The notes beneath the pieces were generated by a model. It was not told the DNA's origin and did not search any database. It was given only the letters and a program-made list of their open reading frames with translations. A DNA stretch of 64,000 bases, taken from assembly GCA_905221615.1 (NCBI GenBank), contig CAJNDT010005868.1:248001-312000 (forward strand). The letters are read 5' to 3'. Shown here in pieces: positions 23,896 through 44,700 of this stretch (position 1 is the first letter of the stretch; the number at the start of each line of letters is the position of its first letter). The position numbers were made by a program, and so were the translations under genes. This stretch comes from Symbiodinium sp. CCMP2592 (lineage: Eukaryota > Sar > Dinophyceae > Suessiales > Symbiodiniaceae).

Positions 23896-24249
<354 letters not shown>

Positions 24250-25560
24250 CCCTGGCCAAGAAACCAGAGCAGCACTAACAAGCGACTGAATTATAATAGC
24301 CACAAAATCTTAAATCCTAAATTAGAACACAAACCCTAAACCTTCTTGAACCCTAGGATGGCAGGTCCCCGCTAGCCCTTCTCGAACCTGAGCGAAGAAA
24401 GTCTGACTCGTATCTGGCAGCTACAGAAGTGATGTACCAGTGTTCGTGAACCCGTGGCATTGGTTGGGGCTTGGGGTTTCTGTTGTTGTACGTATTGATT
24501 TGGTTCGGCGTACTGGGCCCCATGACGGACATCGTCAGACCCCCGCACAGACCCCGTCGTCACTCTCAGGCCGGAACAGCTGATTTTGGGCGGAGGATTG
24601 GGCTGCCGTGGCGAGGCCGGGGATTTGTCACCAGAGGCTCTTCCTTGAAGCCTAAAAACCCTGAAGCCTCAACCCTAAAGCCCGTAGACCCTTTAAACCC
24701 CAAGTTTGGAGGGCTTTTCTTCCTTGGAACCCTGAACACCCTAAGCTTTTCAACCCTCAACCCTAAACCCGTTAACTACTTGCACTAATTTCTGGGGCTC
24801 TGGGTCGTTTTTGGGTTTTGGGTTCCTGTTTACGGTTAGGGTATCAGGGTTCCTGTCACTGGTTCCTGTCGTGATTTAATTCAGGTTCTGGAGTTTGGAT
24901 GTTGGTAAGGGAGGTCTAGGACCGGATCAATGCTTGAGTAAGACGGTTATGCTCATTTGTTGGCATAGGTTCTTGAGGGGTTCCTTTAGGGCCTTCAGAG
25001 TTCTCAGTTTTAGGTGGGTTGAGTCCTTCCGGTTCAGTGCGGAGGTTTCAGGTTCTTCGGAGTGGGATTGGTTTTCTGCGCACATACAGACAACATTAAA
25101 CCCCGACCATGCCCATGGTCAATGGGGCCCTAAACATGTGCAGGCAGCCAGGGGACGCATGCTCGCACACACAAAGCCTTGACCCAATCACCATTGTCAT
25201 TCTCAGTGTCATATTAGAAACCCCGTTATGTTGTTGTGTGTTTGCCCTTTCAAACCCGTTAACTATTGTACCTATGCCACCGCAAAGAGAAATCACTCAA
25301 TCCTGAACCGCTGCCCTAAAGTTTTAAACCCTAAGCAGGATTTGGACGGGTTTCGGAGCCAGGTTCCAAGCTTCTGGTGAAATAGGCAGGAGGACTTGCA
25401 TGCAAAGAATGCAAAAACAAAGCAATTTTTTGACACAACAACTACCACTGCGGGATGTCCTCCTTAGTTCTAGTGGGGAGGGTTGCCCAGGGGAGGTTGC
25501 TTGACTTGGGAACACTTCGGCTTCCGGCGGGTGGCTCCATTGTTCAGGGTTATAGGCGTC
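24250..25560. other. No gene seen
   Basis: Short frames only, with some degenerate CCCTAAA words near 24330 and 24650-24770. Confidence 0.4.
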
Positions 25561-25579
25561 AGCTGTTGGCGGCCAACCA

Positions 25580-26080
25580 CTGGACCACACAACGCCTTTT
25601 CACTTGGCGGCCGAGTCCGGGCACGTCGAGGAGTTCCAAGTGGTGGACAGCCAGTCGCAGGTGCATCGCACCATCCGAAAGGACTTGGACAGCCATTCCG
25701 CCGACAACAAGATAGCGCCTACCTCCATGGTGACCCTCTTTACCTGAGCGTATACCTGCTCAGACGCTAGTGGGTCCATGAGCACCGGAGCATGCTCGGT
25801 CCAAGCTTCTAGCCCAGGGCAACAGAGCCAAGCCGAGAAGCGGCAGGCAACCATGGTGAGCGAGGAACCACGGAGCCTCCAAGACATGGAAAGCGGCATG
25901 TTCCCCGATGTTTCGACTGTTGGGAACCACTGCCACTGCGCTGGCGGGGACAACCCTCAGGTTGGCGTCATGCGCTGCACTGCCTGCGGGCTCCTGATCT
26001 CCTGCAAGGGGAGTGAACCAACGCCCAGGACCGGGCTGGCATGGACATGTCTCGTGCATGGCGTAGGCCCAACCTAAACC
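25580..26080 (+). CDS. Possible two-part gene fragment with a cysteine cluster
   Basis: The frame ESGHVEEFQVVDSQSQVHRT (about 25607 on) is protein-like and stops at 25748. A second frame from ATG 25778 gives 99 residues, including SLQDMESGMFPDV and a cluster CHCAGGDNPQVG..RCTACGLLISC that could bind zinc. An intron between the two is likely but not placed. Opposite-strand frames are also open. Confidence 0.3.
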
Positions 26081-26767
26081 CAACCTTAAACTCCCATGCC
26101 TGCTCGAGGTAATCCCCCTAGTGATTTAGTCCATGGGGATTATGGGGAAGACATTAGTAGGGGCTGGATTAATTACGGTGGCACCCTTTGATTGCTCACT
26201 CGTCCATAAGACCTTATTACTGATTCTGATCATTTGGGGTTTGCGGCCGCTTCGCCTTCGTCTTCGCTGGCTGCTGCCGGCAGCCGTCGTCGGCCGACAC
26301 GTTTGGGGGCTTCCCTACTTAACCTTGCCTAGCAGTAGCAGCCCAGCCCCAGCCCCATTAGGATTAATCAACAAAGGCGAGTGAGCTTAAGATAGGCACA
26401 TGCGAACCCGTTTTTTTCATGTCCATGGTAAGGCGGTGCCACCTTAGGCCAGCCACTAGGCGTAGGAAGTAGCATGTCATGTTGCAGCCTCGAGGCCACT
26501 TTCCCAGCCCTCTCCTTCCCAACCTGCATCCCTTGCGATCATCGAAGAAGGTCACAGACCCCTGTAGGACCCCCCTGGTGTCTGGAATCACCCGGGTCCG
26601 CGTGCAGGCTGCCATGTGCCGCCGTTTTGGCCGCTGTGCCAGTCCGGAGAGTCGTGTGAGCCTGAGCTTGGGGACAGTCGTTGCAAACGACTTCGGGTAT
26701 GTGTTCAGCTATCACATATACTAGCACTGTTTCTTTGGTTTGCGACTACCGACCTCACTGCACACTT

Positions 26768-27005
26768 GCCAGGTCCTGCATTTGCGGTCGTCAGTCAAGG
26801 CCAGTGTGCATTCAGCAAGCTTATCCCTTGAAGCTCCCGCCTGGTCTAGCGTTTGAGGTCATCACTTACATTAGTTGGACTTCGTCTTCGTCAAGGCCAG
26901 TGTGTATTTGCAGGCAATCATATTATACCTTCAAGCTCCTGCCAGGTCCTGCAATGAATTGCCATCGTCACTTACTCGGACTTCGTCTTCGTCAAGGCCA
27001 CTGAC
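26768..27005 (-). repeat. Three exon-like repeat units
   Basis: Units start at 26768, 26839 and 26941 with GCCAGGTCCTGCA or a variant. On the minus strand the best unit reads LDEDEVRVSDDGNSLQDLAG; the others carry stops or frame slips. They resemble duplicated exon pieces, related to the 22-kb minus-strand segments that also end in (I/V/L)DLA. Confidence 0.5.
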
Positions 27006-27761
27006 TGTCGCATTCGTCCAGGAAAGAGTTTAGGGTTTAGGCAGGGTTTAGGGTTGAGGAGGTAAGAAAAAGCTACCGTGAAACTCAGCTCGCACGCTAA
27101 GAATCAGAAGCTGCCTCCTCGCACCACGACCTGCCTTGCCCCTATGCTCCCCAAACCATATTTCGGGTGAAGACCCCAAACCCTTCCTAAAGTTGCAGAG
27201 GCGTAATCGGGTTCCACATCGATTGCCATTCTAATCCCGGATTTCCCTGGAACCACTTGGGCCATTGAATTGATCTTCAGCACCCTTGGACACGAAATCC
27301 CCTTCTGAGTAGATGCAGGGTTTTGCTCAAAGAATCAGATTCCGCAGGATTTAGGGATGGTCTTGGAAGCTTCTGTATTCTTGCCGTGGTCAAAAACCCA
27401 GTAATGTCTAGATGTCCCGGTAGATAGATCTGTAAATAAAGTCAAACTCGGGACCAGCCTATCCATGAGACTCTCCTGTTGATTCCGACATGTGCGAAGA
27501 CCATGATTTCTGGCATTGGAAGGTTCAAGCGAGGTGTAGCTGATTGGGCCATTTAAGGCCGTGAAGTCTGAAGCTCGTGTAGTTTATTTTGGTGGAGTCA
27601 GCAGAACATTGTAAGGTCAAAGTGGATTCTTCACGTCAGACAGAGCTCACCACCTTTTCCACAGAGCAAAGCCTTGAAGTCTGAAGCGGGTTAGAACCCA
27701 GGGTTTGTAATACAAGTTCTCAGTAGTTAACGTAGGCCGGTTATTCCAGTTTTTTGTAGTA
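27006..27761. other. No gene seen
   Basis: Only short frames. This is the upstream region of the next gene; no promoter motif was recognised. Confidence 0.35.
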
Positions 27762-29271
27762 ATGCCTCGCAAGCGAAAGGGCGAAGATGGTGCCACTGCT
27801 GGCTCTGAGCCCAAGCATGCGCCTGATCCTTCGGCGCCTTCGTCTTCGCCGCCTTCGGATGCAGCGGCCAAGGCGGCTCCAGCAGCGGCTTCGCCTTCGC
27901 CTTCGAAGGCCGAGGGTCCAGCGGCTTCGCCTTCGTCTTCGACGGCCAAGGCAGAGGCCAAGGGTGCAGCGGCTTCGGCTTCGCCTTCGAAGGCGAAGCC
28001 GAAGGAGCCACAGCCCAGAGAGACCAGGTTTGATTTACGTGTCATTTTTCTCATATTTCCTAGCAAGAGTGTTCGCGTAAGGGCTGAGCTGTCCTTCCCC
28101 CACAGGCCGTTATATTACCCCTCACCGTTTTGCCCTATTCAATTGAATTGCCCAATATCTTCTAGATCCAGGATCCAACGTCGAACCGGAGCGTGAAGAG
28201 GGCGAGATGGCAGCAGCAGCAGCAGGGCAAGGCTAGTGCCTTGGCATTCAATCAGGTCAAGCTCTTCTAACTTGTAAGGCATGAAACAGTACATCATTAT
28301 GTTTGCTGCTTCGTAAGATTAAAAACAGTCAATAATTAATATAAAGGCCAGGCATGCGGATTTGGAACTTCAAATCCCAGGCAGTACTCCAGTTGGTGCC
28401 ACACCAATCGCTGCCAAAGCTCCTGCAGCTGCTGTCTTGCCGGCGGAGGCAGGTCTGGGTGCCGACATGGCGGCGGCTCCCATTCCGCCGCCGCCGCTTC
28501 CGCCGCCGGCTTCGACTTCGCCGCCGGCTTCGACTTCGTCGCCGGCTTCGTCGAAGGCGCCTCCGGCTTCGAGTTCGCTGCCTTCGTCGGCTTCGTCTTC
28601 GTGCTGTCCAGTTCCCCCCCCCCCGGGGGACGTTTTCAGCTTGTGGACACAGGCCATGAATGAGCTGGCGGCGATCAAGACTCGAGTGGTGTGGATGTTG
28701 TCAAGCGACAACTATGCCACCGCCCAAGACCATGGGCTGGACCGGCAGTCCTTGAACATCGCCCTCCCGCCGACGCCCAGAACACCTGGAGAGGCGCGTG
28801 ACAGCCTTCAGGCAGGGCCTGGTTCTTTCAACTTACTAAATAAGGTTCCAAGGACTTGTACTTACTATGATCGGCTTTGAGTCAGCCTCAATTTCTAGGG
28901 GCTGGTTTCGCGTGCCCATGTCAGTTCATGCAGCGGCAGATCGCGGAGTTCGCCCAGTGGGAGGCGTTATACGCCTTCCACACTCCCGAGCTCGCGATCT
29001 ATGCCAGGTATGTTCAGTCAGCGACGACCGTTCCCTGAGCAGACTTGGTATTTTATTTACAACAATAAACTTTTATGTTTTATATTCTATTTGTAGGTAA
29101 GTAACATGACTTGCTACATAGCCCAGAATCGCTAAGGGGGGCACCACCAGCCAGCTGCATGGCCTGAGAGGCCCTCCGAAGCCGTGGCGGCCGCTTCCCG
29201 AGCACCTGGGAGGGCCCGGCAGAGGTAGCGACAAAGGCAAAGGCAAGGGCAATCCCAAAGGCCCGGCCTAG
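27762..29271 (+). CDS. Multi-exon gene, Ala/Ser/Pro-rich protein with Gly-Lys tail
   Basis: Exon 1 27762-28027 starts MPRKRKGEDG, a basic start, then Ala/Ser/Pro/Lys low complexity. A short acidic exon (NVEPEREEGEMAAAA) ends at 28226 with a GC donor. Exon 28352-28811 holds GHADLELQIPGSTPV, a Pro/Ser linker and FSLWTQAMNELAAIKTRVVW; GC donor. Exon 28934-29007 reads RQIAEFAQWEALYAFHTPEL, GT donor. Exon 29127-29271 ends in a Gly/Lys-rich tail and TAG. The last three joins keep phase exactly; the join of exon 1 to exon 2 is unsure. Possibly a nucleic-acid-binding protein by its basic ends, which is inference. No family recognised. Confidence 0.65.
28072..28137. repeat. Segment shared with 55.42 kb
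   Basis: TTCGCGTAAGGGCTG..GTCCTTCCCCC(A/G)CAGG and CCCCTCACCGTTTTGCCCT also occur at 55423-55482 on the same strand. Here it lies inside an intron, ending with an acceptor-like CCCCCACAG. Confidence 0.8.
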
Positions 29272-29336
29272 GCTTTTTTTTGAATTGGTGTTCGCCTTCG
29301 TTGGGCGTTCGCCTTTGTTTCGTCTTCGCCTTCGCT

Positions 29337-29719
29337 TCCTACAATGTCATGTGGGAAGTTGAAGTGAGCAGCTTGAAGACGCATGCCGACAAAATGCTTC
29401 AGAGCAATCCTGAACAATGATGATAACCAGGGGTTGCTGAAATCATGATTACCGCTCACATTGTCTGCCGCCAGGTTTGATGACACCTTGGCCATGCACA
29501 TCAGTCATTACAGATGGTTCGGGACTGAGTAGATGCTGCTTCGTTCCTACAATGTCATGTGCGAAGTTGAAGTGAGCAGCTCGAAGAGGCATGCCGACAA
29601 AATGCTTCAGAGCAATGTCATGATTACCGCTCACATTGTCTGCCGCCAGGTTGGATGACACCTTGGCCATGCACATCAGTCATTACAGATGGTTCGGGAC
29701 TGAGTAGATGCTGCTTCGT
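29337..29719. repeat. Tandem duplication, 208 and 175 bp
   Basis: Copy 1 29337-29544, copy 2 29545-29719. Copy 2 lacks about 33 bases (the CCTGAACAATGATG.. stretch). Otherwise nearly identical, so recent. Confidence 0.9.
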
Positions 29720-30172
29720 GCCAAGTCAGTCAGTTCGGGCACTTGCATGAATGAATGTCCTTGGTTTGTGCCAGCTTTTTAATCATTGCTCAAGTGAGGG
29801 AGTGAGCACATGCACATGTCTACGCATGCAGCATTCTATACCAGGACATTGAAGCCGAGTTAATTCTTAATAGAAGAGTAGGCTGATGTCGTTATGAAAC
29901 AGTGTCACTGGAATTGATGATTTAGCCGGCAGAAGCAGCAGAATTTTAGCCGTTTTCTGTCCCTGGCTTGGACGGCCGCGTCGAGAGAAGGAGCCCAGCG
30001 TCGAGAGAAGGAGCCTGCCACGTGACCTTGCAGTGAGAGCATGTAAGTATTTCATTTCATGCGAAATTCCGCGATCCCAGGACCTTCGTCGTCTTCGCCT
30101 TTTTCGCCTTCGCCTTCGTCGCCTTTGGCGTCATCCTTCGTCCTCTTCGCCTTCGTCGTCTTCGCCTTCGTC
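29720..30172. other. Upstream region of the next gene
   Basis: No coding frame. 30087-30172 is rich in TTCGCC/TTCGTC hexamers leading directly into ATG 30173. Confidence 0.4.
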
Positions 30173-32404
30173 ATGACGACGTATTTGTGCGTCGAGCTCG
30201 ACTGCTGCATCGTCGCGGCGCACGGCAACAACCCGACGCACATCTGCATCTGGACTGAAATTAACAAAGCGTCCTCCTTCAGGTAGGCCAAGGTTTTTTT
30301 TTGTAATAAGGTAAAAGCCAGAAAGTTGGAATATGATTATCCTAACTCTTCTATGGTAAATTATAGGGTATCCTACCATTAAACCATATTCCAACTTTCT
30401 GGAGTTCCCTGTATTATAGCAGAAGCTGAGATGACGCGAAGAGCTACTGGCCGACAGCGGCCGTTTGCCTGCTGGACGTCCAGCGGCTGTGGCCGGGGGA
30501 GCTCCCCGACAGCCTCCGTGGCGGAAGCTTGGCGGCAATTTACTTGAGCTGTTGCGTTGGTGCCAAACTTCCTTGCTTTCTGATCCGGCCAAGGAGACCC
30601 TCTGAGTTCACAAAATGACTTTTACAAGCTCATCTTGGAGGGCTCCGAGGCCATGGTGTCAGTGCTGTGCGTGGCATCTCGGCTGATTCCGTGTGCTTGG
30701 ACAGAGACCTTCCTTTTTTTGGGAATGTTGAATGCTGAGCCCACCCAGGTCATGGGCATCTGCGCCGCCAAGGATGGACGAGACGACAAGGCCCACGTCA
30801 TCATCCTCACGTGCAACTTGGCGATCAGTCACTGGTCCTAGGAGTGAGTTGCACCATGTCGAGTCAGACACTGCTTGGTACTTAGGCGGGGATGGTCGCC
30901 TTCGTTCCGTCGCTACTGCGATGGTGGTGGGCTGGTGCTTTATGGTTTCGCTATGGGTGCCGGGAAAATCTGCCTTCTACTCAGACATGGACGACATTCC
31001 AAGCTTCGCAGAGTCGAAGAAGATCACAGCTGCGATAAAAAATATCCAAACAGAGGCGGAAAGGAGGCCGATGGGCTGCATAGTCAATGTTCAATCAATT
31101 CAACGTGTTCTTCCTTAATTAGTCCTGCTTCCTCAGGTTCTTGAACACCGTCTTCCACATGAACATCCAGACCTCAACGCCGAAGACGGAGGACCGTAAA
31201 AAAAAAAAAGGAAAAGGCGGACGTGGAGGAGGAGAAGAACAAGGAGGAGAACGATGACAACGAGAAGAAGGAGGACAACAAGGAGGAGAACCATGACAAC
31301 GAGAACAAGGAGGAGGAGAACAAGGAGGAGGACGAGAACAAGGAGGAGGACGAGAACAAGGAGGAGGACGAGAAGAAGGAGGAGGACGAGAACAAGGACG
31401 ACAAGAAAAAATTTCTCGAGAAGGAGGAGTCGTCATTACCGGATGATGATGATGATGATGATCAGCCGCCCCCAAGTGGCAGCAAGAACAAATGTCCGTC
31501 TTGGCCTTCGCAAACGGCGAAGTTTTTGGAGTCTCTTGGTCCTCCGCCGCCTCCGCCACCGGGGAAGCCGCCTGCTGATGATGACGACGATGGTGACGGC
31601 GAGGAAGAGTCTGAGGAGGAGGACCTCACACTGGCACAGCGAATGGTCAGAAAATACACGCCGGAGCTCTTCGAGCTGATGATCCAGATGAACATCGATG
31701 ACAGTGCCTGGGCCGTGACTTGCCTGCAAGCATGGACTCAGTTGTTGCCTGCTTCAATATTCAAACAGATGGTCTGTTTTGCTTCAGTCCAGGGGATGGC
31801 AGCATTGTGCGAAGAAGACAAGACGAAAGCCCGGGAATTTATGGCCCATATTCTTCGGAAGCTCGGGCGGCATTTCATCAGTAGAAAATCGGATGTTTTA
31901 ATGAATTATCATGTCTATGAAAAGAAGTTGTTTGAAACCTCACTATCTGATTGCCTTGGCCGTTAACTCAGGGAGAGGAGCAAGAAGGGCAACTGTCCCC
32001 TCGACGAAGTGTTCCGCAATGCGTCCGCCAGCGTGCAATTTCATGTCATGTCCCGCTTGAATGTGAGGACTTTTCGCTTCTTGGATTATGCCCGACTTCT
32101 TCCTTTTGCAAATTTTTCTTGCTTCTAATTACTTTGTCATTGACGATTTATGGAGTCAATCATTCTCCTCTTCACAAGGACCAGGAGAGGGACCAGGAGA
32201 GGGAGGGCCTTCGTCGTCTTCGTCCCAGCAGCACCAGGCTGCCGCATCTTCCCAGCATCCGTCGCAGTCGACTTCGTCTTGGCACCAGTCGACTTCGTCT
32301 TCGCACCAGAGCTCGCAGGATGGCTTCTGGTCTTGGAATAGTTGGTGGGAAGATTGGGAGTGGGTGTGGTATGACGACAATTGGAAGAAGTGGAGCTGGC
32401 ACAG
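30173..32404 (+). CDS. Multi-exon gene, acidic and Trp-rich protein, unknown function
   Basis: Proposed exons: 30173-30282 (MTTYLCVELDCCIVAAHGNN), 30444-30555 (YWPTAAVCLLDVQRLWPG), 30629-30827 (LILEGSEAMVSVLCVASRL), 30985-31066 (MDDIPSFAESKKITAAIKN), 31137 or 31171 to 31926, 31972-32062 (KGNCPLDEVFRNASASVQF), 32179-32404. Phases fit at most joins; donors are GT and GC. The large exon has a Glu/Lys/Asp-rich stretch (31223-31420), Asp and Pro runs, then a globular part (TLAQRMVRKYTPELFELMI). The last exon is Ser/Gln-rich and ends in a cluster of tryptophans with acidic residues, before a consensus donor (CACAG|GTAAGT), so the gene goes on. The 32062/32179 join and the A12 run at 31198 are unsettled. 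Confidence 0.55.
30318..30402. repeat. Foldback element filling an intron
   Basis: CCAGAAAGTTGGAATATG and its exact complement (30385-30402) sit inside the 161-base first intron of the gene above. It is the only clear foldback of this kind in the central zone. Confidence 0.85.
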
Positions 32405-32509
32405 GTAAGTTTCTGGCCAGCTTTCTTGCGAGCCGTGCCGAAGCCTGAACTACATTAGAACACAAAGGACAGGACCAATTAATAGTTTAGTCAAGACTGG
32501 TTTTTTTGC

Positions 32510-32760
32510 ATGGCTCGCAAGACCACGAGTCTTCCAGGCTCTTCCAGCGAAAGACCTCGATTGCAGCACAAAGTGGTCCAAAAGTGAAGAAATGCTTTGC
32601 TCAGCTATTTGCGCTTCCTGATTCCTTGGTCACACCCCATTCCCTTGGAGTTGAGGTCTTTGGCCGACGAGATGTTCTTTTTGTCTGCCCCTTGGCAGGT
32701 GCCAGTGCCAGTCGTCTTAGTTCGCACATCTGCAGATACACTTTACTGCCAGGTCTGACC
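32510..32760 (+). CDS. Possible exon(s), frame uncertain
   Basis: ATG 32510 opens MARKTTSLPGSSSERPRLQ, which stops at 32585. An overlapping frame reads KKCFAQLFALPDSLVTPHS then GVEVFGRRDVLFVCPLAG to about 32700. It could be a first exon of the H3-like gene at 33.8 kb (the start recalls an H3 tail), or downstream exons of the previous gene. A minus-strand 186-codon frame is also open here. Confidence 0.25.
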
Positions 32761-33227
32761 AGCAGCCATCTTCTCTCATTATTGCAAACAAGATCTAAGC
32801 CGGGGCCTTGGATTCGACAGTCGTCCAAGCACTCCTGTAGAGTACCCCAGATTCCGCAGCTCGACATGCTTAGGTCCAGTAAAGCATCGAGTCCAGTGCA
32901 TGTGAACATGGGGTCGTGACGTGCACATTTGGCACCGAGATGACTCCGAGGTCCTGGCCGTGGAGTCTCGACTTGGTGTGACTGGCAAGGCTGAGTAGTC
33001 ATTCTGCCGAAATCTGAGTTGCAATAAATCCTGCAAGCTTCTGGCGCATGAGGCCATTGGCGATCAGAGAGTCTGGCACCTGGGTTTAGAAGTCCGTGTG
33101 TCTCATATTGGGCTGCCGTTGTGTGAGCAAGCAGCAGGAATCGAAGCATGTGCTGCAGCATTTGTTTGCTCTGGGTTCATTGCTGGACCGTGCGAGTCAG
33201 TGTCCACCGGGGTAGAATCCAGCAGAG

Positions 33228-33410
33228 ATGGTGCGAGTGCCTTGCCAGTTTGTTCGAGACGCACTTGCTTCTGTGTGTTTAAATTTCAGAGGAAATTTGC
33301 AACAGCTGAGGCAACACGGAACAGAGGCAAGGAAGCTGGAGTGCCGTGGTTGTAAGCCAGTCTTGTCATTTATTGTTGCTAGATTAGAACTTGTGCGAAG
33401 TAGTGACTGA
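33228..33410 (+). CDS. Weak candidate exon with Cys pair
   Basis: MVRVPCQFVRDALASVCLNF then ARKLECRGCKPVLS is open for 60 codons. Three copies of an ACACGGAA(G/C)A-led segment start near 33314, 33421 and 33540; the third also codes a Cys cluster. Either a decayed zinc-knuckle repeat or chance. Confidence 0.25.
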   Translation: MVRVPCQFVRDALASVCLNFRGNLQQLRQHGTEARKLECRGCKPVLSFIVARLELVRSSD

Positions 33411-33801
33411 ATCTAAGGCCACACGGAAGACAGGCCAGCTAGAGAAGCAGAGGGTGGTTGTGCTCTGCTCGCAAGTATGCGTCTCTGGCCGAAACGCTCG
33501 CTCTGGACCTGTCACTTAGTTCCTGACCAAGATGAGGCTACACGGAAGACGGGCAAGCAAGCAGAGCTGCAAGTGCCGCTTCTGCAATCAGTTGGTTCCA
33601 GGACTGGAAATTCACAGACAATTGACAAGCACTGTTGACAAGATTCTTCTGATGTGAGGTCAACAGCTCGCCTTCGCCTTGCACACCCCCTCGGCGTTCC
33701 AATGTTCCTGTGACTGCAGAGTACGCAAGACGTTACAGTTACAATGCAAAGTGTCGTTCTGCACCTTGTCCTCTGAATGGTGACCAACGTGTGAGGTTCA
33801 G

Positions 33802-34202
33802 AGCTCGCCGTCGTCTTCGTCGGCTTCGCCTTGGTCGTCTTCGGGGTCGTCTTCGGGGTCGTCTTGTGCCTCGAGTAAGAAGTACCCCGTCAAGATCAAC
33901 CGGCGACTGGTGGAGCAGCAGATACATGATCTGCAAAGTATAGACAACTACCTGTCCATCCCGAAGAAATCGTTCAAGGCAGTAGTTCACAAGCTCGCCT
34001 TGGATGTGGCTCCCCAGTCAAAGCTGCATTTCAGCAGCGAAGCACTAGATTGTCTTCAAAAAGCCACAGAGGCCGGGCGGTAGGTATGAGCTGACGTTTC
34101 ACTCAGATTCGCCTTTATGAATTGGTGCATGCAGGACTTGGCCAGTGACTTCATCCTGACAATGTACGCGATGTCGCCTTCGCCTTCGGAGTCGACCTTG
34201 CG
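33802..34202 (+). CDS. Histone H3-type fold, candidate centromeric H3
   Basis: Exon 33802-34071 follows GGTTCAG. Residues 1-25 are a Ser-rich tail coded by TCG-TCT-TCG. Then comes KINRRLVEQQIHDLQSIDNY, LSIPKKSFKAVVHKLALDV and APQSKLHFSSEALDCLQKAT. These line up with the H3 alpha-N helix, helix 1 (IPK-x2-F-x2-VV), loop 1 and helix 2 (SSEAL-x2-LQKA). After a GC donor and a 63-base intron, exon 34135-34202 gives DLASDFILTMYAM, continuing helix 2. From the VV of helix 1 to LQKA there are 24 residues; canonical H3 has 22 and CENP-A 24. The C-terminal part (RVTI..KDIQLA in H3) is not placed; KKDIGRVGQLEGVR at about 34401-34442 is a candidate. The family match is clear to me; centromeric identity is inference. 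Confidence 0.6.
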
Positions 34203-34341
34203 GTTAGTTCGGGGGTTGTGCAACACGTTTTCCGAGCCTCTGCGCAGAACCTTGCTGCAAGCAGCAAAGCCTTGACTTGTTCCTGCACACATGTTCTGTG
34301 TGACTCGGCCTGGCCTTCCATTGGTCTTGGTCTCACTGTGG

Positions 34342-34470
34342 GGTCCTGCAGACGACCATCGTGTCGCCTTCGAGTTCGCGCTCCGGGGGGTCGTGGAGAC
34401 AAAAAAAGGACATCGGAAGAGTCGGCCAGCTGGAAGGCGTTCGTGTTTGCAGAGGGCGTTAGTCTTTGCA
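34342..34470 (+). CDS. Possible terminal exon of the H3-like gene
   Basis: The frame ACG-ACC-ATC reads TTIVSPSSSRSGG then RQKKDIGRVGQLEGVRV and stops. KDI and the following hydrophobic spacing recall the H3 end. The first 29 bases (34342-34370) match 27 of 29 bases of the coding region at 48425-48453. All three plus frames are open here, so this is tentative. Confidence 0.3.
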
Positions 34471-34900
34471 CAGCTTCATGCGAGCATTGGTGGTTCTTAG
34501 AATTCTAGTCTATCTAAGGTCCCTGGCCATGGTCTTCCAGGAAATTTGCGGAATCCGGAGGCCCGGCTTCATTGGCAGACCTCAGACTCGACAGAATCCT
34601 TTTCTTCAATTGAGGTTTGTTGTGAATTCTTGCAGTGCCATGCAACATTATCTTCAGCAGTTTAAGTACCGCAGGTGACAGGTCGCCAGGTCCCGCGTGC
34701 ATTTTTCATTACGTAGGTTTCAATTCTAGTAGGGCAGGCAGCGCCGTCCGGTCCAGGTCGACATGGAATAGACAACACTAACAGGGCGAGCAGCTGGAAC
34801 ATGAGATCGCCAAGCAGGCAGACGTTTCAGGCACGGCAGACACATAAGACTAGCGAGCAAGGACGAGGAGGCGATAGACGATGATAGGTCCAGACAATAA

Positions 34901-35284
34901 GTGCAAACTCCATGTGCCTGCATGTTCCAGATGAATATGAAAGAAGGTTCGGAGGAGGAAGCCCCAAAAACAGGTCTGATGACTTTCTCTTGCTGCCTGT
35001 GTCCGGAGTTCATTCTGTTTTGCCAGGAATGTTCCCTGCCGTGGGACGAGCTGAAGGAACAGTGGTCAAGCAGCCAGCCCAGGAGGAGGCGAAGATTGCT
35101 GGTTCTGAAGTTGTTTCGCATGCAGCACATGCGACTTTGCAATAAAGACAGCAACTTGTTGGTGGCATGTGCCTTTTTTGTTCAAGGCCAGTCTGTGAAG
35201 TTCGGACGGAGGGTTTCAGAGACATCCACACACATAGCAAGATACATCGCAGGACATTTCAAAGGCATAACTGTCATACAGTAA
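34901..35284 (+). CDS. Candidate gene, 127 codons, CxxC pairs
   Basis: One open frame with an inner ATG at 34934 (MNMKEGSEEEAPKTGL). Features: a cysteine cluster CCLCPEFILFCQEC that could bind zinc, LPWDELKEQW, an RRRRR run, and VKFGRRVSETSTHIARYIAG. Partly overlapped by an open minus frame. No family recognised; may be an exon set of a larger gene. Confidence 0.35.
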   Translation: MQTPCACMFQMNMKEGSEEEAPKTGLMTFSCCLCPEFILFCQECSLPWDELKEQWSSSQPRRRRRLLVLKLFRMQHMRLCNKDSNLLVACAFFVQGQSVKFGRRVSETSTHIARYIAGHFKGITVIQ

Positions 35285-35365
35285 TACTGTAGGATTAGTG
35301 ACTAGAGTGCTCATGCTAGTTATTCACGGCTGGTTTTTTTCGCCTTCGCCATTTTCGCCTTCGCC

Positions 35366-36970
35366 ATGTTCTCCACGGAGGGTCTGCCCCCATATTTTGT
35401 GAAGATGCTGCGAGACACCTGCGAGTTTGTCTTCGAGGAGTCCTATATGACGGAGGACTGCTTTTCCAGGGACGTGGACCTGCTGGAGGTTGCCTGGGCC
35501 CCTTCGGTGGGGATCACGGCTTATGCCGACTTTCAGCTGCACTAAGAATAAGAGAACACCCGTGGCCAAGTTTGCTGGTAGCCAATCATGTCGTAGAATT
35601 GCGGAATTCTGTGGTTGTCTCAGAAGAATTGAGGCTGGACTGAAGACTCAGTTCGCCTTCGATGGTGATCTCACGACCTACGAAGGCAAGCGGCAGTGAG
35701 TCTTGGATAATTTTTTGTTAGACCATGACATGACATCATGTCATCAAAACGCGAAACTGCTACATGACAAAGGCTTGGCCTTGTTGGCAAGAGTTCGCCT
35801 TGGTGGCCTTCGCTTCAGCGGCATTTTCTCGAGCCTTTTCATGTTACCTGTTTGCATCCTCTAGCTCGTGCTTTAAAATAGAAGATCTGTGGCAGCAGGC
35901 TATGAAAGCTTTGGAAAGTAACTGTTCTGAGGCAGGCGAAGCAAAAGATGCAGGAACCTGAGGATGATTTGGCAGAGCCATGGCAGCATGATTCTTTCTG
36001 AGGGGCCATGAGGTTTGTTGCGATGCCAGGATTCATCGCAGTGCGTCTCTACGGCTCATTCATAAGGACTTTGAAGCACACTCTGCGATCTTCTGCCGCA
36101 ATGCGAGAATCTGGTCCGTCTGCGAACAACCTTTGGGTTCCTGGCTGCCTGGGTGGCCTGCAATGGAAGATCCATGTCTGCAGAAGACTGCGGCCGTACG
36201 TGCCGGCTTTACGGTTACGTTCGTTATTAACTGAGCCTGCAGCAGGATGCCTGGACTACGTGTTCCCAGGAACGGGCGACGTTGAAGCTGGGCGCTTTCG
36301 GCTTCGAAGCCCCGTGTCTGGGCTTCCTTACTGACAGGCTACTGACTTGCATGGGTGCATTATCAATGTCATGTTACTCGAGGCAGCCCTTCCAATTGAT
36401 CGGCAACGACAAATTTTTATTGAGATCCTTCAAGTTCTTGGAGAAGCATCATCTCATGCAGAGGCTGCCGCCTGCAGGCAAGAGGGTTTAACCGACTGGT
36501 AGAAAAAGAAGGAGAGAGCCTGTGCTGCGTCCAGTGTGGATAAAACTCAGGTTTCTGGCAACGGCAGACTTGCCCAACCAGTCCGCAACTTACATGGCAG
36601 TGACGGACAAGCGGCGGCACTCGCGGACCTTCGACGAAGCAGCCACTCGGTTTGCAATGCTTGCTTCTTCGCACACATCAACATTTGGGAAAGTGCTGTC
36701 TAACCTTGATCGCCAGGTCGTTTCTCTGCAAAGACTTCGCAGCAGTATGTCACCTTCGCGATTGAGGCTATGTTTACAGGATCGTTTGGAGGATCTTGCG
36801 GTTCGGCTTGTGGAGCAGGACAGGTCTCATTTTACAATCGGCTTTGTGCCTGGATTGATCGGTTTGGGACAGAAGAGACTTACTACGGCAATGTCTTGGC
36901 GCCCATCACTCTGCCAGGACCTGGACCACAGGCTGCAAGGAAAAACTGCTGCCGACTTGGAGCCTGCGCG
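35366..36970 (+). CDS. Probable multi-exon gene, unknown function
   Basis: ATG 35366 follows TTCGCCTTCGCC and opens a 59-codon frame starting MFSTEGLPPYFVKMLRDTCE, with DCFSRDVDLLEVAWAPSVG (stop 35543). Further islands in the same strand: GLKTQFAFDGDLTTYEGKRQ ending at 35696; FQLIGNDKFLLRSFKFLEKH within 36282-36480; TYMAVTDKRRHSRTFDEAAT within 36554-36716; and QYVTFAIEAMFTGSFGGSC with SFYNRLCAWIDRFGTEETYY in 36743-36970. The last two are in different frames, so an intron or a frame error lies near 36.69-36.74 kb. Whether all belong to one gene is inference. Confidence 0.45.
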
Positions 36971-37110
36971 TTCGCGACCTCGCCTTGAGCTGGTTCTACA
37001 GGACCACGGAAAAGTGAAAACATGCATCACGGCACACTAGTAGAATGCTTTCCTCCTTCTAGGAAACTGACTTGGCAGCTCCGTACGACGCCCTGCCTCG
37101 CCTTCGTCGT

Positions 37111-37251
37111 ATGTTGAGGCACATCCCGGAGGCCATTCTATATTTGATTCTTGCGGATGGGAGGGGGGTGGTTTCAATCATGTGGCAATTTCGCACAAAA
37201 GTCAGAGACTGATCTGGGAAGCAGGACTTGGAGGAGGAGGAGCAGCAGTGA
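37111..37251 (+). CDS. Weak candidate small gene or first exon
   Basis: ATG 37111, preceded by CGCCTTCGTCGT, opens MLRHIPEAILYLILADGRGV for 33 codons. A 24-base GT..AG segment (37201-37224) would join it to DLEEEEQQ. Confidence 0.25.
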
Positions 37252-37859
37252 TCGGCGAAGTTTTCTCTGGTCTTCGTCTTCGTCTTGGGGTAAGAAGACG
37301 ATTGCTGCTGTGAAGGCATATCCTTCTCACTGAGAAGGTGAGAGTAGAGTAGCATGTCTTGCTACTTTAGTTCCGCACGATCTGTCGGATGTCTCACACA
37401 GAGCAGCTGTGGAGAAGGGGAGTCCGGGATCTTCGAAAAGGGTGCCGTCCAGAACATCTGAGAGCTGCATGCAGGAAGACACAGTGTGTTGTCCGAAGCT
37501 CCGCTTAACTTGTCTTGCGATGCCAAGGCACTCAAGCCCTAGAAGGACATCGCCAACCGAGGCATGCAGGCCATGCGGTGCAGGACTGTGTGCCGGCTCG
37601 GTGGATGTCCTGATAGGATACAGGATCGGAAGCCGGTGCACAGCTTGCCAGAGTGCCAATTGAAGCTTTTGTGTTGTGAGAAGTAGCCCCCTCAAGCAGG
37701 AACAGACGTATTCCAAACAGAGGCCGGACAGTTGGGGCAAAGCCTGGCTGTATGGCAAAGCTGGGGTAAAGCATGTTTCGAGAGTACTAGTAAAGTCTGT
37801 TGTGCCAGGGAGACCCTAACTTTAAAAATTCAATACATTACATGAGCAGAACCACAGGC

Positions 37860-39060
37860 AAACGCCAATTCAAGCTTTTCAGGCAGGCAAAAGTTGTTTT
37901 CGGCTTCCCGAGACAGGTTTTGTGGCACTCTAGAAAAGGCAGGCTGGGCAGTGGAGAGAACCGTGTCAGTCTCGATAAATTGAAATCAAAAGTTTGCTTG
38001 GCATCCAAACAAGTCGGAGGCTGGGAGAGTGGGCACGAAAGTCAGTTGTTGCTTTGTCACTTTGCGAGACTGCCAATTCAAGCTTTTCAGCTTGGCAAAA
38101 GTTGTTTTCGGCAGCCCCGGGCATGTTGTAATGTATTCCGTCGAACAAAGACAGCCTGAGAGGTTTGGTTTTTATCAAAGAAAGAACACTGTACTAGGGA
38201 GATATGCAGCAAAAGAGCAGGCTGCGAAGTTGCGGATTCAAGTAATCCTGGCTTTGCTGTGTGAGACTGCCAATTCAAGCTTTTGGGGTTCCGAAAAGTC
38301 GTTTTCGGCTTCCCCCAACAGGAAAGGACGTCTTCCAAAAGCACAGGACAGACAGCTGGAACAGTATGGCAAAAGCACAAGAGGTATCCTTGTTGTGGCC
38401 GGGAGACCTTAACTTTAATTAAGTACATTACATCAGCACAACCATAGGGAAATGCCAATTCAAGCTTTTCAGGGTAGCAAAAGTTGTTTTCGGCTTCCTG
38501 GGACAGGTTTTGCTTTACTCCAGAAAAGGCAGGCTGGGCAGTGGAGAGAACCGTTTCAGTTTGGGGTTAGTAATAATTTGAAACCAAAAGACTGCTTGGC
38601 ATCCAACCAAATCGGAGGCTGGGAGAGTGTGCACGAAAGTCAGTTGTTGGTCTGTAACTCTGCGAGACTGCCAATTCAAGCTTTTCAGCCTGGCAAAAGT
38701 TGTTTTCGGCAGCCCCGGGCAGGTTTTAATGTATTCCGTCGAGCAAAGACAGACTGGTCGCGTGAGACCGTACAGGCTGAGTTGTTTTAAGCAAAAGAAG
38801 ATCTGGTCAGAAAGCAGGTTTTGAAGGTTTTTTCCTGGCTCTGCAACTGCACAAGACTGCCAATTCAAACTTTTCGGGCTGGGAAAAGCTGTTTTCGGCA
38901 TTCTCCGAGGCATCTGGAAGTATTCCAAGCCAAACACAAGCTGTTCTGTTGTCTAGCACCCCAGGTTTTCATGGGGACCTACCAAATTGCCTGAAGCTGG
39001 GAGAAGAACGATTTAAGCTTTTGGGGCTGGGAAAAGTTGTTTTCGGCATCCTCGGCACGA
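37860..39060. repeat. Seven hairpin-bearing repeats, about 200-bp spacing
   Basis: The core GCCAATTCAAGCTTTT..GGCAAAAGTTGTTTTCGGC recurs near 37865, 38072, 38270, 38454, 38670, 38859 and 39010. Each core can fold (CTTTT..AAAAG; the sixth has GCTTTTC/GAAAAGC). Copies 1-2 and 4-5 share longer flanks, so a block of about 590 bp was itself duplicated. Confidence 0.9.
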
Positions 39061-39470
39061 TCTCGAGTGGGGCCAGCGGGGCTCGCAGGAAGCCTTGGCG
39101 GGGTTCAGAGCAAGCCTTCGCAGGGTTCGCAGGGTTCGCCGGGCCCTTCCGGGAAGCCTTCGCAGAAGGGCCTTGTGTCGGAGAATTTCGCCGGAGAGGG
39201 TGCAGAATTCGATCGCAATCGGGCTCGCCTTCGCAGGGCCCTTCCCTTGACTTGGGCAAAGAGAAGAGCAGGGTTCGCAGAAGGTTCGCGGAAGGTTCGC
39301 GGAACCAGGGTTCGTGGCTGCGGGGGCCCTTCGTTACGAACCCTGCCCGGGTTCGCGGAGGGTTCGCTCCGAACCCTTCGGAGGTTCGCAGGAGGCCTTC
39401 GCAGAAGCTGCCCGCGAGAGGTTCGCAGCTCGCATTCGGGGTTCGTGGAGTGGTTTTGGGTGCAAGATCC
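39060..39470. repeat. GGTTCGC-rich low-complexity region
   Basis: GGTTCGC(A/G)(G/A)G words recur more than fifteen times in both orientations (also CGAACCC). Frames across it are Arg/Gly-rich and not taken as genes. Confidence 0.75.
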
Positions 39471-39533
39471 GGTCAGGGGGGAAAAGTAAAGTATACAAAG
39501 GTTTGGGTAAGCCAAAGCCTGTGATTTGGTAGT

Positions 39534-39541
39534 CGTAGTAT

Positions 39542-39621
<80 letters not shown>

Positions 39622-39622
39622 T
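39534..39622. repeat. (TAG)n array
   Basis: About 28 TAG units. Confidence 0.95.
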
Positions 39623-39741
39623 CGTACTAGTACTACTTGTTGTCCCACGAGTGCTTGAAAGTACGACTATTTTCTTCCTGTAGTAGTATAAAAAGTAGTA
39701 CTTGCAGAAGACCTTACCAGGAAAATATTCTATTTCGCAAA

Positions 39742-39834
39742 ATGCAGGAACTTCCGCTGCTGGTGCAGTGCCTGTACGAGGCCACCTGGGCCACAGTTGA
39801 TCGGTGCTGCCCGTGTGTCTGTGTTTATGCGTGC

Positions 39835-39881
<47 letters not shown>

Positions 39882-40499
39882 GTGTGTGTGTCCGTCTTTG
39901 CATGTGTCTGTGTCTCCGACATGAACTGTGCAAGTGCAGGCATTTGTTGCAGTACCTCATGAGGAGGCCGGCCGGTTTTCTCACATGTTGTTGGGTCGCC
40001 GTCCTGTGCTGTGGCGCATGTTGCCGTCATTGCTTGAAGAGCACCGGTGGCATGAGTGCATGTTGTGTGATGCAGTGGACATTCCGAATCGTTTCACGTC
40101 GCCTGGTGCAGCCTATAACGTTCACTGAACATTAAAGGACATGCGGGCAACGGGTGCCGGCATAGTCACAGTCCTGAGCTCAGTTCGTTGAATGCACAGT
40201 TTTGCGAGTTCGGGAAATTGAAGGCAACCGCCCACAGCACGTGCACTGGGTTTCTGTGAAATGTGCGAGGGTTTGCAGCAACGTACCTGTGCCCCTCTTT
40301 AGTTTCAAGCAGCTTCTTTGATGAGGATGGGCAAGCGGGTCTGGATTCTGAGTCCCTGCCGCTGTGCCAGGTGTGTCGTCTTCGCCTTCGTCCACCGTGT
40401 GCAGTGCCGCAGCGAGGTGCCCACAGCAAGTTCACAGAGGTTGCTCCCAGAGTTCATGACCTCATGAGCGTGGCTGCCATTGGTCTTAGTCTGATTTGA
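39742..40499 (+). CDS. Probable multi-exon gene, unknown function
   Basis: Island 1 from ATG 39742: MQELPLLVQCLYEATWATVD, then a (TG)n tract that would lie in the first intron. Island 2 (39936-40128): AFVAVPHEEAGRFSHMLLG, RRPVLWRMLPSLLEEHRWHE and CMLCDAVDIPNRFTSPG. Island 3 (about 40310-40499): FFDEDGQAGLDSESLPLCQV and FTEVAPRVHDLMSVAAIGL. A GT donor ACA|GTTGAT (39794) joined to GTGCAG|GCATTT keeps phase 0. Cys pairs (CMLC, CQVC) could bind metal. The gene begins close after a (TAG)n array. Confidence 0.4.
39838..39880. repeat. (TG)n microsatellite
   Basis: Probably inside the first intron of the gene above. Confidence 0.95.
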
Positions 40500-40713
40500 G
40501 GTGGCAACTCAGCAACATCCGACATGAGGAAATCACTACTTCTGCCATTTTGCTCAGAATGCAAGAGACATGCACGGACAGGGTCCAATGCAACAAAAAG
40601 GAGACATGCTGCCGACAGGTGCTACATTATATTCTACTGTCATAGCAGGAACTACACTGTAAGTGCATGTGAAGTTGATAAGTACTTGGTTTTTATCCTC
40701 AATCCCTTCCTTC

Positions 40714-40895
40714 GCAGAGGTCAGGTCTATAACACAAACCCGGACTTCCAGAACCTGGACACAAATATAAGCTTCCAATTGCCAAGATCCTCCATCCCTT
40801 CCTTCACTTTTATATAGCAGAGGTCAGGTCCTTATTAGAACACAACCCGGACTTCCCGAAGCTGGGCACAAATATAAGCTTCCAATTGCCAATTC
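40714..40895. repeat. Tandem duplication, period 104 bp
   Basis: GCAGAGGTCAGGTC begins both units (40714, 40818); both end in ATATAAGCTTCCAATTGCCAA. Confidence 0.9.
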
Positions 40896-40962
40896 GGCCG
40901 CCATAGCCGGTCCAGTGCCGCTCCGTATAGCCGGTCCATTGCCACTCCGCTCTCCCTGAGAC

Positions 40963-41618
40963 ATGTTCGAAAACAGAGGGCATGACGGGCAAGACTCTGG
41001 CGGGGTCATCGTCCCCTTCGGAGCGGAATTCAACTACCCGAGCATGAGCAACTTGGAGGCAGTTGGAGCAAGCAAAGAGGGATTGTTCATCATGCACTTT
41101 CAACGTCTGCTCTGTCAGCTGAGGTAACAGACAAGGACCAGGCAAGGGCAGAGACGTCATGGCTGGGTACCTTGGCTAAGGCAAGAGCGAACATTTGGGA
41201 ATTTGGCATTAGCTTTTCCAGCTAAGGTATTGCCACGAGTTCTACAAAGGCTACATTCACACGACTTGGGACGTCCGCGGAAAGTGGCCGAAAAACGTGG
41301 CAGACAGCAAAGGGAGACACATGTCCCCCGACAGTCACTTGGCTCCTTTGAAATACTTTGAGTTTTCTTTCGTCTTCGCCTTCGGTACCCCCTGACCTTG
41401 TATGCTGAGATGCCGTCGCCTTCGCCTTGGAGGAAGAAGACCAGGGCCCGGAGGGAAAGCCGAACCCCCTCATCAACCAGAAGTTTTTGTTGAGAATGAT
41501 GCAGGAAGGTTTTGACGCCTTTGTTGCTGGATTGGTCTTCGTCTTCGGTCTCCGAAGTGGCCATTCCCCGGACGACTGGCACTGCGTCGCCTTGGCCTGT
41601 TCCTTTGCTTACATTTGA
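40963..41618 (+). CDS. Multi-exon gene, unknown function
   Basis: Exon 1 40963-41123, from ATG: MFENRGHDGQDSGGVIVPFG, FNYPSMSNLEAVGASKEGLF, ending IMHFQRLLCQLR. GT donor (GAG|GTAACA), 103-base intron, exon 2 from 41227: YCHEFYKGYIHTTWDVRGKW, NVADSKGRHMSPDSHLAPL. The phase 2 join is exact. Exon 3 holds EEDQGPEGKPNPLINQKFLL and MMQEGFDAFVAGL. It joins either by a 25-base segment 41385-41409 or by a phase-0 intron from 41372 to about 41432. Stop at 41618 unless spliced on. It may be the 5' part of the next gene, 120 bases away. No family recognised. Confidence 0.6.
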
Positions 41619-41737
41619 AAACGGTCCGTTTTTTGTCGCTTGCTTCTGGCACCGTCAGATTGGACCCAGCAGACTGAGGCTCAGCAGGATGCCATCGCTC
41701 GCTGAGCATCGCCATCGTCTTGGCCTTCGTCTTCGGC

Positions 41738-43011
41738 ATGTCGCTTTGGGCGCCTTCGCTGAAGAAGGGTTTCGACGACCCGGCGAAGATCCCGGTGCTG
41801 GAGGCTGCTCTGGGACGCAAAAACGGCAGCCTCTTGCTGGAGAGGATCAAGGAGCTCTGCGAACATGCAGAGCTCAAGCCATTTGTCAGAAGTAACATTA
41901 GAGGATTGTTTGGTAATTTTTGGTTGCCAGTGGCCCACTGGGTCTGTACTTATTTTTGCTTGTTGACATAAGGATCCTCTCCAGTTGCAACAGCATCGGG
42001 ATATCGCCTTCGTCGTCTTCGCCTTCGACTTCGAAGTCGCCGCCTTCTTCGTCTTCGAAGGAGCTGCCGAAGCAGAAGACCCCACTGCCCAAGGCGCGGC
42101 CGATCAAGAGGAAGCCTCCCGCTCCGGCTTCGTCTTCGAAGGAGCCGCCCAAGCAGCCCGATGGACCAAAGAAGAAGCGCCGGCAGGATGATGATGACCA
42201 GCAGCACCACGCCTCCTCCCGCCAGCTCGCCTTCGCCGTCGACGACTCCGAGCCCGAGGCTGTGGAGAATCCCGTCATGAAGCGGGCAACCTGACCTGAT
42301 AGATGTTTTTGGGTTGTGTTCGTTGGTCCTTCCAGTTTAGGTGTAGCTTCTTCCCATTGAAGTCAAGTCAGGTCAGAACCAGAGTCTTGGACCTGGCTCC
42401 CAGCCTCTTCAGGGTGTTGGAGGATCTCGGCGTCGACGAGGAGGCGTGGTGCTGCATGGAGGCCTTGGCGTCGCACCCCAACCCCCAGGGGTTGGGGTTC
42501 GCCTTGGACTTCGTCGCCACTGGCATGAGCGGCCTGACAATGAAGTCCATCAGGCATTCTCGTGTCTTTTTCGGTATTGGTGGCTACTAATCAAACTTCT
42601 AATTAACTTCTCCCAGATCCGAGGCGCTCTCCACGATCCTCATGCCGGATGGGACAATCCCAGCGCCGTGGCAGTCGACCACTGCAGAAGGCGATCGCGG
42701 ATTCTCTCAGGCTCTTTGGATTTGTCGAATCGGCAGAAGCTTTTTCAGATGTTTCTTAAAGTTAAGATTCACAAATTTCTAGCCTAATTCCCAACCTGCC
42801 TGAGGCCATGAAGACCTCCCGGGCAACTCCAACAAGGGTTCTGTGCCTTGCCACTACATGAGAACCGTTAGGGTACGGGTTACCCTGCTACTTTCTTGGA
42901 GCGTCGCACAGTGACGTCAAGTTTTTGAACCCCCTGCAGGGCGCTGGTCCTTGGTACCAAAAAGGAAAGGGCAAAGGTGGCCAGCAAGGCAAACGCCGTG
43001 GCAAGAAATGA
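41738..43011 (+). CDS. Five-exon gene, 264 aa, basic Gly/Lys tail
   Basis: Exons 41738-41871, 41973-42285, 42372-42553, 42617-42710, 42940-43011 sum to 795 bases, 264 codons plus TGA. Phases agree at all four joins. Donors GC, GC, GC, GC by this model, acceptors AAG or CAG. Residues 1-45: MSLWAPSLKKGFDDPAKIP and a helical stretch. 46-148: Ser/Pro/Lys-rich, with KKKRR as a possible nuclear signal. 149-210: VRTRVLDLAPSLFRVLEDLG and DEEAWCCMEALASHPNPQG. Then MPDGTIPAPWQSTT and the tail WYQKGKGKGGQQGKRRGKK. ATG 41738 follows TTCGTCTTCGGC. The first join is the least sure. An unknown family; the tail suggests RNA or DNA contact (inference). Confidence 0.7.
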
Positions 43012-43035
43012 GTGCCAGGATTAGGAAGCTTGTCC

Positions 43036-43560
43036 CAAAGTCTTCCGCAATCAGGCTTTTTGCTCTGCGGTCGCGGCATGGCATCAGAGTACCTATTAAT
43101 AACAAAGTCTTGATCTAACAGTCTTCGCCTTCGCCTTCGACCGAAAGAGCCGTCTGCCTGCACATCAACTCTGCTGCGTGCACCCAAAAGAAGTCGGAAG
43201 CTCTTCCAAAATCTTCCGCTAGTTCAGGCTTTTTGCTCTGCGGTCGCGGCATGGCATCAGAGTACCTATTAATAATAAGAAACTCTTGATCTAGCAGGCT
43301 TCGCCTTCGCCTTCGACCGAAAGAGCCGTCTGCCTGCACATGAACATCTGCTGCGTGCTGCAGAAAGGAGTCGGAAGCTCTTCCAAAGTCTTCCGGTAGT
43401 TCAGGCTTTTTGCTCTGCGGTCGCGGCATGGCATCAGAGTACCTAGTTAGTAATAACATACTGTTGATCTCACAGTCTTCGCCTTCGCCTTCGACCGAAG
43501 AGAGCCGTCTACCTGCACATCAATTCTGCTGCGTGCAGGCAAAAGAAGTCGGCCTGGATT
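43036..43560. repeat. Three tandem units, 173 and 177 bp
   Basis: GGCTTTTTGCTCTGCGGTCG starts at 43054, 43227 and 43404, each followed by TACCTA..TTAATAATAA, TTCGCCTTCGCCTTCGACCG and AAGAAGTCGG. They begin right after the stop of the gene above. Confidence 0.9.
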
Positions 43561-43924
43561 CACACTTGTGCTGCCATGACGACCCCTGAAGCCCTGCGGC
43601 CTCATGCTGTTAAGTTGTCGCGTGGCCAGGTGCTGAGCTGCAGATTCCAGTTTGGATGCACGGAGCCTCAGGGACCGAAAGGACCATTGCAGAATCATTC
43701 ATGTCTCGAAGTTTTTTTTAAAAAATTAATCTTGTCTAATCCCAGCAAGGCCAAAAATCTTGCAAAATAGAGAAAGAAAGCCCGTTTGCTTAGAGCCCCA
43801 AAGCGTAAAAGCTCTTTCATTGTAATCTGCAAACCCCCTGCCTAAACCCAGCCTTACAGCAGGAGCTCAGGGTTCAAGACATTCCCAATACACTAAATCA
43901 AGGGCTGCCTACTAGTCAAACTGG

Positions 43925-43962
43925 CACAATGGATATGGCGTTGGCTTCTGTGGCTGGACGGA
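43925..43962 (+). other. tRNA-Arg-like 5' half
   Basis: TGGCACAATGGATATGGCGT fits the A-box and D arm of tRNA-Arg genes closely, and an anticodon-like stem-loop follows. No B-box (GGTTCGANNCC) or T arm follows. Likely a tRNA fragment or tRNA-derived repeat head, or chance. Confidence 0.2.
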
Positions 43963-44064
43963 GCTAGTAGAGTGGCACAGATGCACTTTTCCACAGGGCA
44001 GGATTAAGAACTGAAGCCATGAGAAATATATCAAGGTTTCGGACTCGGGCTTTTTTCATTTAAG

Positions 44065-44164
44065 NNNNNNNNNNNNNNNNNNNNNNNNNNNNNNNNNNNN
44101 NNNNNNNNNNNNNNNNNNNNNNNNNNNNNNNNNNNNNNNNNNNNNNNNNNNNNNNNNNNNNNNN
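44065..44164. other. Assembly gap, 100 N
   Basis: Exactly 100 N, so the true distance and even the join across it are unknown. Confidence 0.99.

Positions 44165-44326: not shown

Positions 44327-44700
<374 letters not shown>

Follow-up and report, generated by a model that had tools for sequence, protein, structure and literature searches.

A divergent, spliced histone H3-type gene inside a 36.4-kb transposon-like element of Symbiodinium, possibly encoding a chromatin protein of the element

Introduction

The closest precedent for the gene described here is H3L of Pyrenophora tritici-repentis, which lies inside a hAT DNA transposon and, according to the available text of the report, was described as a case of transduplication (PMC3538342). 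There as here, a divergent H3-like gene sits between the inverted repeats of a DNA transposon and occurs in many near-identical copies; its authors placed H3L in neither H3 nor CenH3. The fungal element is 5.6 kb long, with an additional 2.3-kb form, and carries a hAT transposase, whereas the element studied here measures 36 kb, carries a transposase-like family without a Pfam match, encodes a protein whose loop 2 appears shortened, and has an H3-like gene that recurs in a diverged repeated unit.

It is a puzzle why dinoflagellates, which make so little use of nucleosomes, retain many unusual histones. Marinov and Lynch found dinoflagellate H3s to be mostly deeply divergent, none of them robustly CenH3 (PMC4751559), and a review calls CenH3-type labels for such proteins premature (PMC6723414), although Symbiodiniaceae transcripts have been named CSE4- and CENP-A-like (PMC3329448, PMC7710908). 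The described variants resemble our gene in their strong divergence, in extra residues within the fold and in an altered SAV motif; unlike it, they are treated as host genes, and the portions of the papers at hand mention no mobile element (PMC4751559, PMC11508785). Two further systems invite comparison. The KDZ and EnSpm elements of Ectocarpus are likewise giant (above 10 kb and reaching beyond 30 kb) and carry additional genes, but their transposases differ as far as Pfam shows and the accessible part of the report does not mention histone cargo (PMC12477816). Large DNA viruses also provide histone genes on selfish DNA, with a longer loop 1 (PMC9145170, and the viral sequences L001 and L002 examined below).

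Here we analyse a stretch of 64,000 nucleotides of Symbiodinium sp. CCMP2592 (hereafter the window), in which we delimit an inverted-repeat element of 36 kb whose transposase-like family lacks a Pfam match. After the fungal hAT element, this would be a second case of an H3-like gene carried by a DNA transposon, and here there are signs that the gene has long been conserved; the literature searched yielded no histone gene in a dinoflagellate transposon, which is not proof of its absence from print. If some dinoflagellate histones are transposon genes, the question of histone diversity becomes directly testable.

Results and Discussion

The window contains a divergent relative of histone H3

An ORF reading of the window shows an open frame on the + strand from 33784 to 34080, followed by TAG. 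Together with the exon structure discussed below, the gene is made up as follows:

33787..33876, + strand: Ser-rich N-terminal coding stretch, open in 22 of 22 loci tested, with a comparable tail in the paralogue C821
33877..34071, + strand: H3-like exon with the alpha-N region, helix 1, loop 1 and the first half of helix 2
34072..34134, + strand: GC-AG intron of 63 bp, its donor shared by four lineages, its acceptor as in C821
34135..34275, + strand: second exon with the stop, predicted to hold the remainder of helix 2, a shortened loop 2 and helix 3; matched in C821

A preliminary description of this DNA had recognised a divergent H3 fold in the segment, and the homology is borne out by H3-directed profile matches and by paralogues. 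Taken by itself the window protein matches weakly: Pfam Histone gives E 0.0082 (16.8 bits) for 33877-34080 and E 0.00097 (19.8 bits) when the Ser-rich part is included, both below the curated cut-off of 26.4 bits, and the locus is absent from the 64 Pfam Histone matches found in the genome at E <= 0.001. Profiles built for H3, several of them from H3 and CenH3 sequences, single the frame out among the 1642 window ORFs of at least 25 residues. With eight H3 and CenH3 sequences it ranks first (E 5.4e-5, next 5.5); it scores E 2.9e-4 when HTR12 is left out (next 2.7), E 0.018 with two canonical H3s only (next 1.5), and E 3.7e-6 with six H3 variants of the same genome (L003, L004, L006, L008, L009 and L010; next 0.63). 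Pairwise shuffle tests point to H3 and CenH3 (p mostly 1e-3 to 1e-5; Cse4 0.013) rather than to H4 (0.56) or H2A (0.71), with H2B weak at 0.025.

The likeness becomes clearer at the level of the family. Pfam Histone is matched by all four members aligned (the window, C821, C5163 and C69; best 2.9e-5), and their alignment (A3) retrieves, at E <= 1, 168 distinct PDB sequences. Among the 60 listed, 59 bear the name H3 and the remaining entry is a hypothetical protein; the best match among them is 7d69_A (E 9e-4). Profile-profile comparison gives the H3 alignment a probability of 97.1% and single H4 and H2B sequences less than 1%. The sub-threshold Pfam score of the window protein and the single-sequence PDB searches, which listed no histone at E <= 10, might suggest that a random open frame looks like H3 by chance; this is contradicted by the family-wide Pfam and profile matches and by exons conserved in paralogues, and we give it next to no credence. 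Judged from sequence, the segment is a real, if very unusual, relative of H3, with homology shown over the predicted helix 1, loop 1 and first half of helix 2. The profile alignment stops before loop 2, and by eye the HAKRVTI stretch is missing after helix 2 in both the window and C821.

A long loop 1 does not identify a centromeric histone

The preliminary description had counted two more residues in loop 1 than in canonical H3, equal to human CENP-A, and had taken this as a mark of a centromeric histone. Counted by eye from the helix-1 Phe to LQ, the distance is 26 residues in the window and 24 in human H3, L003 and L006, so that the count itself is correct. The same distance of 26 is found in human CENP-A and HTR12, and equally in C69 and in 7d69_A, which the PDB labels Histone H3 and which has the same +2 loop in the A3 alignment (by eye); C821 has 25, L008 29, L010 30, and L004 and L009 more. 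Loop 1 thus varies inside the gene family (+1 in C821, +2 in the window and C69), ranges from +0 to more than +6 among the six H3 variants of this genome, and reaches +3 and more in the viral H3s L001 and L002. Since sequences not called CenH3 share a long loop 1, we rejected its length as a criterion for CenH3 identity.

Other features do lean towards a host centromeric H3: the frame has no Gln at the FQSSAV position, an ungapped stretch resembles Arabidopsis HTR12, and a CenH3-only profile gives the frame its highest score (21.0 bits, against 12.0 for the two-sequence canonical profile, which is poorer in sequences). Trees with H3 and CenH3 sets, computed on 64-66 columns, point neither way: a grouping of the family with all six CenH3s has p-AU 0.156 and one with the plant CenH3s 0.101, so that the link is neither shown nor rejected, and the window exon, taken by itself, sits on a terminal branch of length 2.93. 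The letters EAL fit the first three of a motif in Crypthecodinium H3 variants which, in the available text, are not called centromeric (PMC11508785). With 24 near-identical copies inside a mobile element, a loop length that is not diagnostic and undecided trees, a centromeric histone of the host is very improbable. Because the gene rides in a 36-kb multicopy element, its product is more likely to be a chromatin protein of the element itself than the centromere histone of the host cell.

The gene has two conserved exons

The junction at 34071/34135, proposed in the preliminary description, is supported by comparison with C821. A short way 3' of its first exon, C821 contains a match to window 34126-34272 (E 9e-12, 42% identity over 48 residues) that ends at an identical stop position. 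The TGCAG|GA acceptor is common to the window and C821, the two lineages in which the second exon was found, and the GAG|GC donor at the end of the first exon is common to all four lineages compared; in C69 and C5163 no second exon was found by similarity. Introns of the GC/GA-AG type are described for dinoflagellates, as are TTTAGGG telomeres (PMC11453091); TTTAGGG-type repeats are also present in the window. H3 similarity was a misleading guide to splice junctions, placing the one that C821 supports at 368th among 1075 candidates. Nor did H3 similarity reveal a helix-3 exon on the window's + strand or within about 6.6 kb downstream in three paralogues.

Both exons are open in all 22 loci tested, which represent 21 distinct copies, the window's own included. 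Changes among these copies comprise one in-frame deletion and one KK to NN replacement in the N-terminal part; one diverged copy, C3613, is frameshifted. The Ser-rich stretch has no ATG in any of the 22 loci, while C3613 has one at a position where none of them does, and C821 has an ATG together with a Ser/Pro-rich tail comparable to the window's stretch. The idea that this stretch is repeat noise was dropped, since C821 has such a tail. Between the window and C821, pS is 0.88 and 0.77 and pN 0.38 and 0.42 for the first and second exon, with synonymous sites saturated; dN/dS is 0.35 for C821 against C5163, on 46 codons, and 0.31 for C69 against C821. Codon usage is a weak guide, in that the H3-like frame is the best of the three, yet 216 of 1420 open stretches score as high.

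The gene lies in a 36.4-kb element with terminal inverted repeats

Comparison of the window with the copies C271 and C4969 delimits an element with the following features:

19072..55479, strand not applicable: element with terminal inverted repeats, 36.4 kb, delimited by C271 and C4969 homology
19072..19135, + strand: left terminal inverted repeat, imperfect, about 60 bp
55417..55479, - strand: right terminal inverted repeat
19067..19071, strand not applicable: left target-site duplication TTCTT (6 bp with the next T)
55480..55484, strand not applicable: right target-site duplication TTCTT
28115..28137, - strand: internal copy of the right-end sequence

On the left, homology of both C271 and C4969 to the window starts at 19072. 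On the right, the C271 match to the window runs to 55480, and C4969 stops at the same place when compared with C271. The flanks differ between the three copies, and each of the three is bounded by its own 5-6-bp target-site duplication (window TTCTT, C4969 ATATG, C271 TATTTA). A genome scan for the end pattern, with one mismatch allowed, gave 62 matches and the backwards control none. Pairing these matches by hand yielded 13 elements with both ends, spanning 23-53 kb (23.4, 32.4, 35.2, 35.4, 35.7, 35.7, 36.4, 38.6, 42.1, 42.5, 42.8, 47.1 and 53.5 kb). All but one carry the H3-like gene (12/13; C5071 and C5083 have two each), the exception being the complete element C890. The other 10 of the 24 gene copies adjoin incomplete ends or no recognised ends, several of them on contigs under 50 kb. 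Most or all of the 24 gene copies are borne by the transposon-like element.

Some structural features of the element are recorded here. The second, right-end-like terminus, 9 kb from the left end, is present in complete elements and is duplicated together with the H3-like gene in C5071 and C5083. Between 27800 and 49550 of the window, CTTCG-type short repeats are frequent, in coding-like and other stretches, and the G+C content is higher. Searches of the window for spliced leaders, Rfam families and tRNAs found nothing.

The element carries a candidate transposase and further conserved genes

Besides the H3-like gene, four coding regions of the element were delimited:

46120..47922, + strand: ORF of 601 aa, candidate transposase, a multicopy family with conserved motifs
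41213..41968, + strand: conserved element gene of at least three exons, matched in the C821 unit (E 2.6e-20, 3e-23 and 1.8e-25)
31613..31963, + strand: conserved element gene, matched in the C821 unit (local score 82, shuffle maximum 54 in 1000)
28323..29268, + strand: conserved element gene of at least two exons, matched in the C821 unit (E 1.7e-15, 1.8e-11 and 1e-5)

Among the 73 of 389 candidates that were scored, at least 16 copies of the 601-aa ORF stay open for 579 residues or more, and its relatives, at 30-35% identity, are multicopy as well. By eye, D, D-x-R-H and NEE..SH are kept between this ORF and a 1428-aa relative (L071, 1387-5670). Neither protein matches Pfam, and for this reason we infer a transposase role for the 601-aa protein as a candidate function only. 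The family also includes 378-aa frames in many identical copies, and its 601-aa, 1428-aa and 378-aa members are together candidate transposases of several element families.

In size, inverted ends and duplications of about 6 bp the element resembles Polintons, which raises the alternative of an integrated virus or virus-like element, a relative of Polintons or of large DNA viruses, with a viral histone. Viruses do carry H3 genes with a long loop 1, as in L001, L002 and the available text of PMC9145170, and an H3 alignment search of viral contigs returned these two viral H3s. Compared with them, the window exon does not score above shuffles; scanning the viral contigs with the exon gave no relative, nor did a search of phages. 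No match to a polymerase, integrase or capsid was obtained with Pfam or PHROGs (the latter covering prokaryotic viruses only) among the ORFs scanned, which are part of the element's ORFs; the viral contigs differ from the window in having recognisable H3s, and here no viral gene appears among the ORFs scanned. We regard a viral origin as improbable. The IMG/VR contig L001 has, by eye, one open frame with H2B-like, H2A-like and H3-like parts in a row, as in a fused viral histone.

A second, diverged repeated unit, present in C821 and C4976 and 99.99% identical between the two across 11.1 kb, has the H3-like gene and the genes at 41213-41968, 31613-31963 and 28323-29268 in common with the window element. 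In the genome scan no end pattern was found near C821, and the 24 kb read there contained nothing related to the 601-aa ORF. Window 30732-31115 and 41678-41968 match one and the same C821 block, so that the element seems to hold two paralogues.

A possible chromatin protein of the element

As the C821/C4976 unit has it together with three shared genes, the H3-like gene looks like a conserved component and not recent junk. The competing possibility is that of a transduplication passenger, in which an ancestral element captured a host H3-variant gene whose protein is useless to the element and perhaps not made. The missing ATG, the frameshift in C3613 and the complete element C890 without the gene all speak for a passenger and against a gene of the element; many divergent H3 genes in this genome were available for capture, and the fungal H3L offers a parallel. 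Against it stand the same three neighbours accompanying the gene in the diverged C821/C4976 unit and the conservation of both exons in C821. The shared neighbours in diverged repeated units and the conserved exons make it more probable that the gene is a component than that it is a random passenger, and we consider the passenger explanation rather unlikely, though clearly less so than a viral or centromeric one.

We therefore favour, as the probable though far from certain explanation, a giant DNA transposon carrying a spliced, divergent H3-type gene whose product is an element-encoded chromatin protein. Such a 36.4-kb transposon, with inverted-repeat ends and 5-6-bp duplications, would bear the H3-type gene, the candidate transposase and at least three other genes, and the H3-like gene would be kept as part of the element. 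Its product may act in the nucleus on DNA of the element or of the host, paired with H4 or with some other protein of the histone fold. There it could protect, package or expose the element while it transposes, or help it to evade silencing. Since loop 2 seems to be shortened, contact with DNA may be altered, and a decoy that ties up H4 is therefore a conceivable variant. The simplest role is probably that of a nuclear protein handling the chromatin of the element, pairing with H4 or interfering with it. A bolder extension, which we advance only as a tentative and on balance doubtful idea, is that large transposons of this genome encode, as a conserved part of themselves, a dedicated H3-type histone to build or disrupt specialised chromatin in a host that perhaps makes little use of nucleosomes, and that part of the dinoflagellate histone diversity is cargo of selfish elements.

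Copies and relatives in the genome

Copy counts from the assembly searched (1.098 Gb, 5383 contigs) are lower bounds. The first exon has 35 matching rows. Of these, 23 (counting the window) are 99-100% identical, C3613 is 87% identical, eight rows lie at 50-54% (C5163, C821, C1169 twice, C4976, C69, C113 and C5129), and the other three are weak. The 441-bp gene region has at least 24 copies. Among 20 loci of 3.4 kb that were read, the window and 19 others, identity is 99.4-99.9% over the aligned parts; the first C5071 copy diverges from the window at 35058, and about 175 bp are missing from two loci. For probes at 28900, 46200 and 51600, near-identical copies number at least 23, 19 and 19 and mostly sit on the same contigs; the probe at 51600 has 21 weaker matches besides.

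Two copies, in C4352 and C1066, match parts of the element at about 95% identity; they represent an older relative and may be of use in dating it. Of the genome's 64 Pfam Histone matches, 18 rows have a 202-aa open frame in common and seemingly represent one multicopy gene, and 10 rows have one TAG and one TAA, as if from a multicopy pseudogene; these too may be element-borne.
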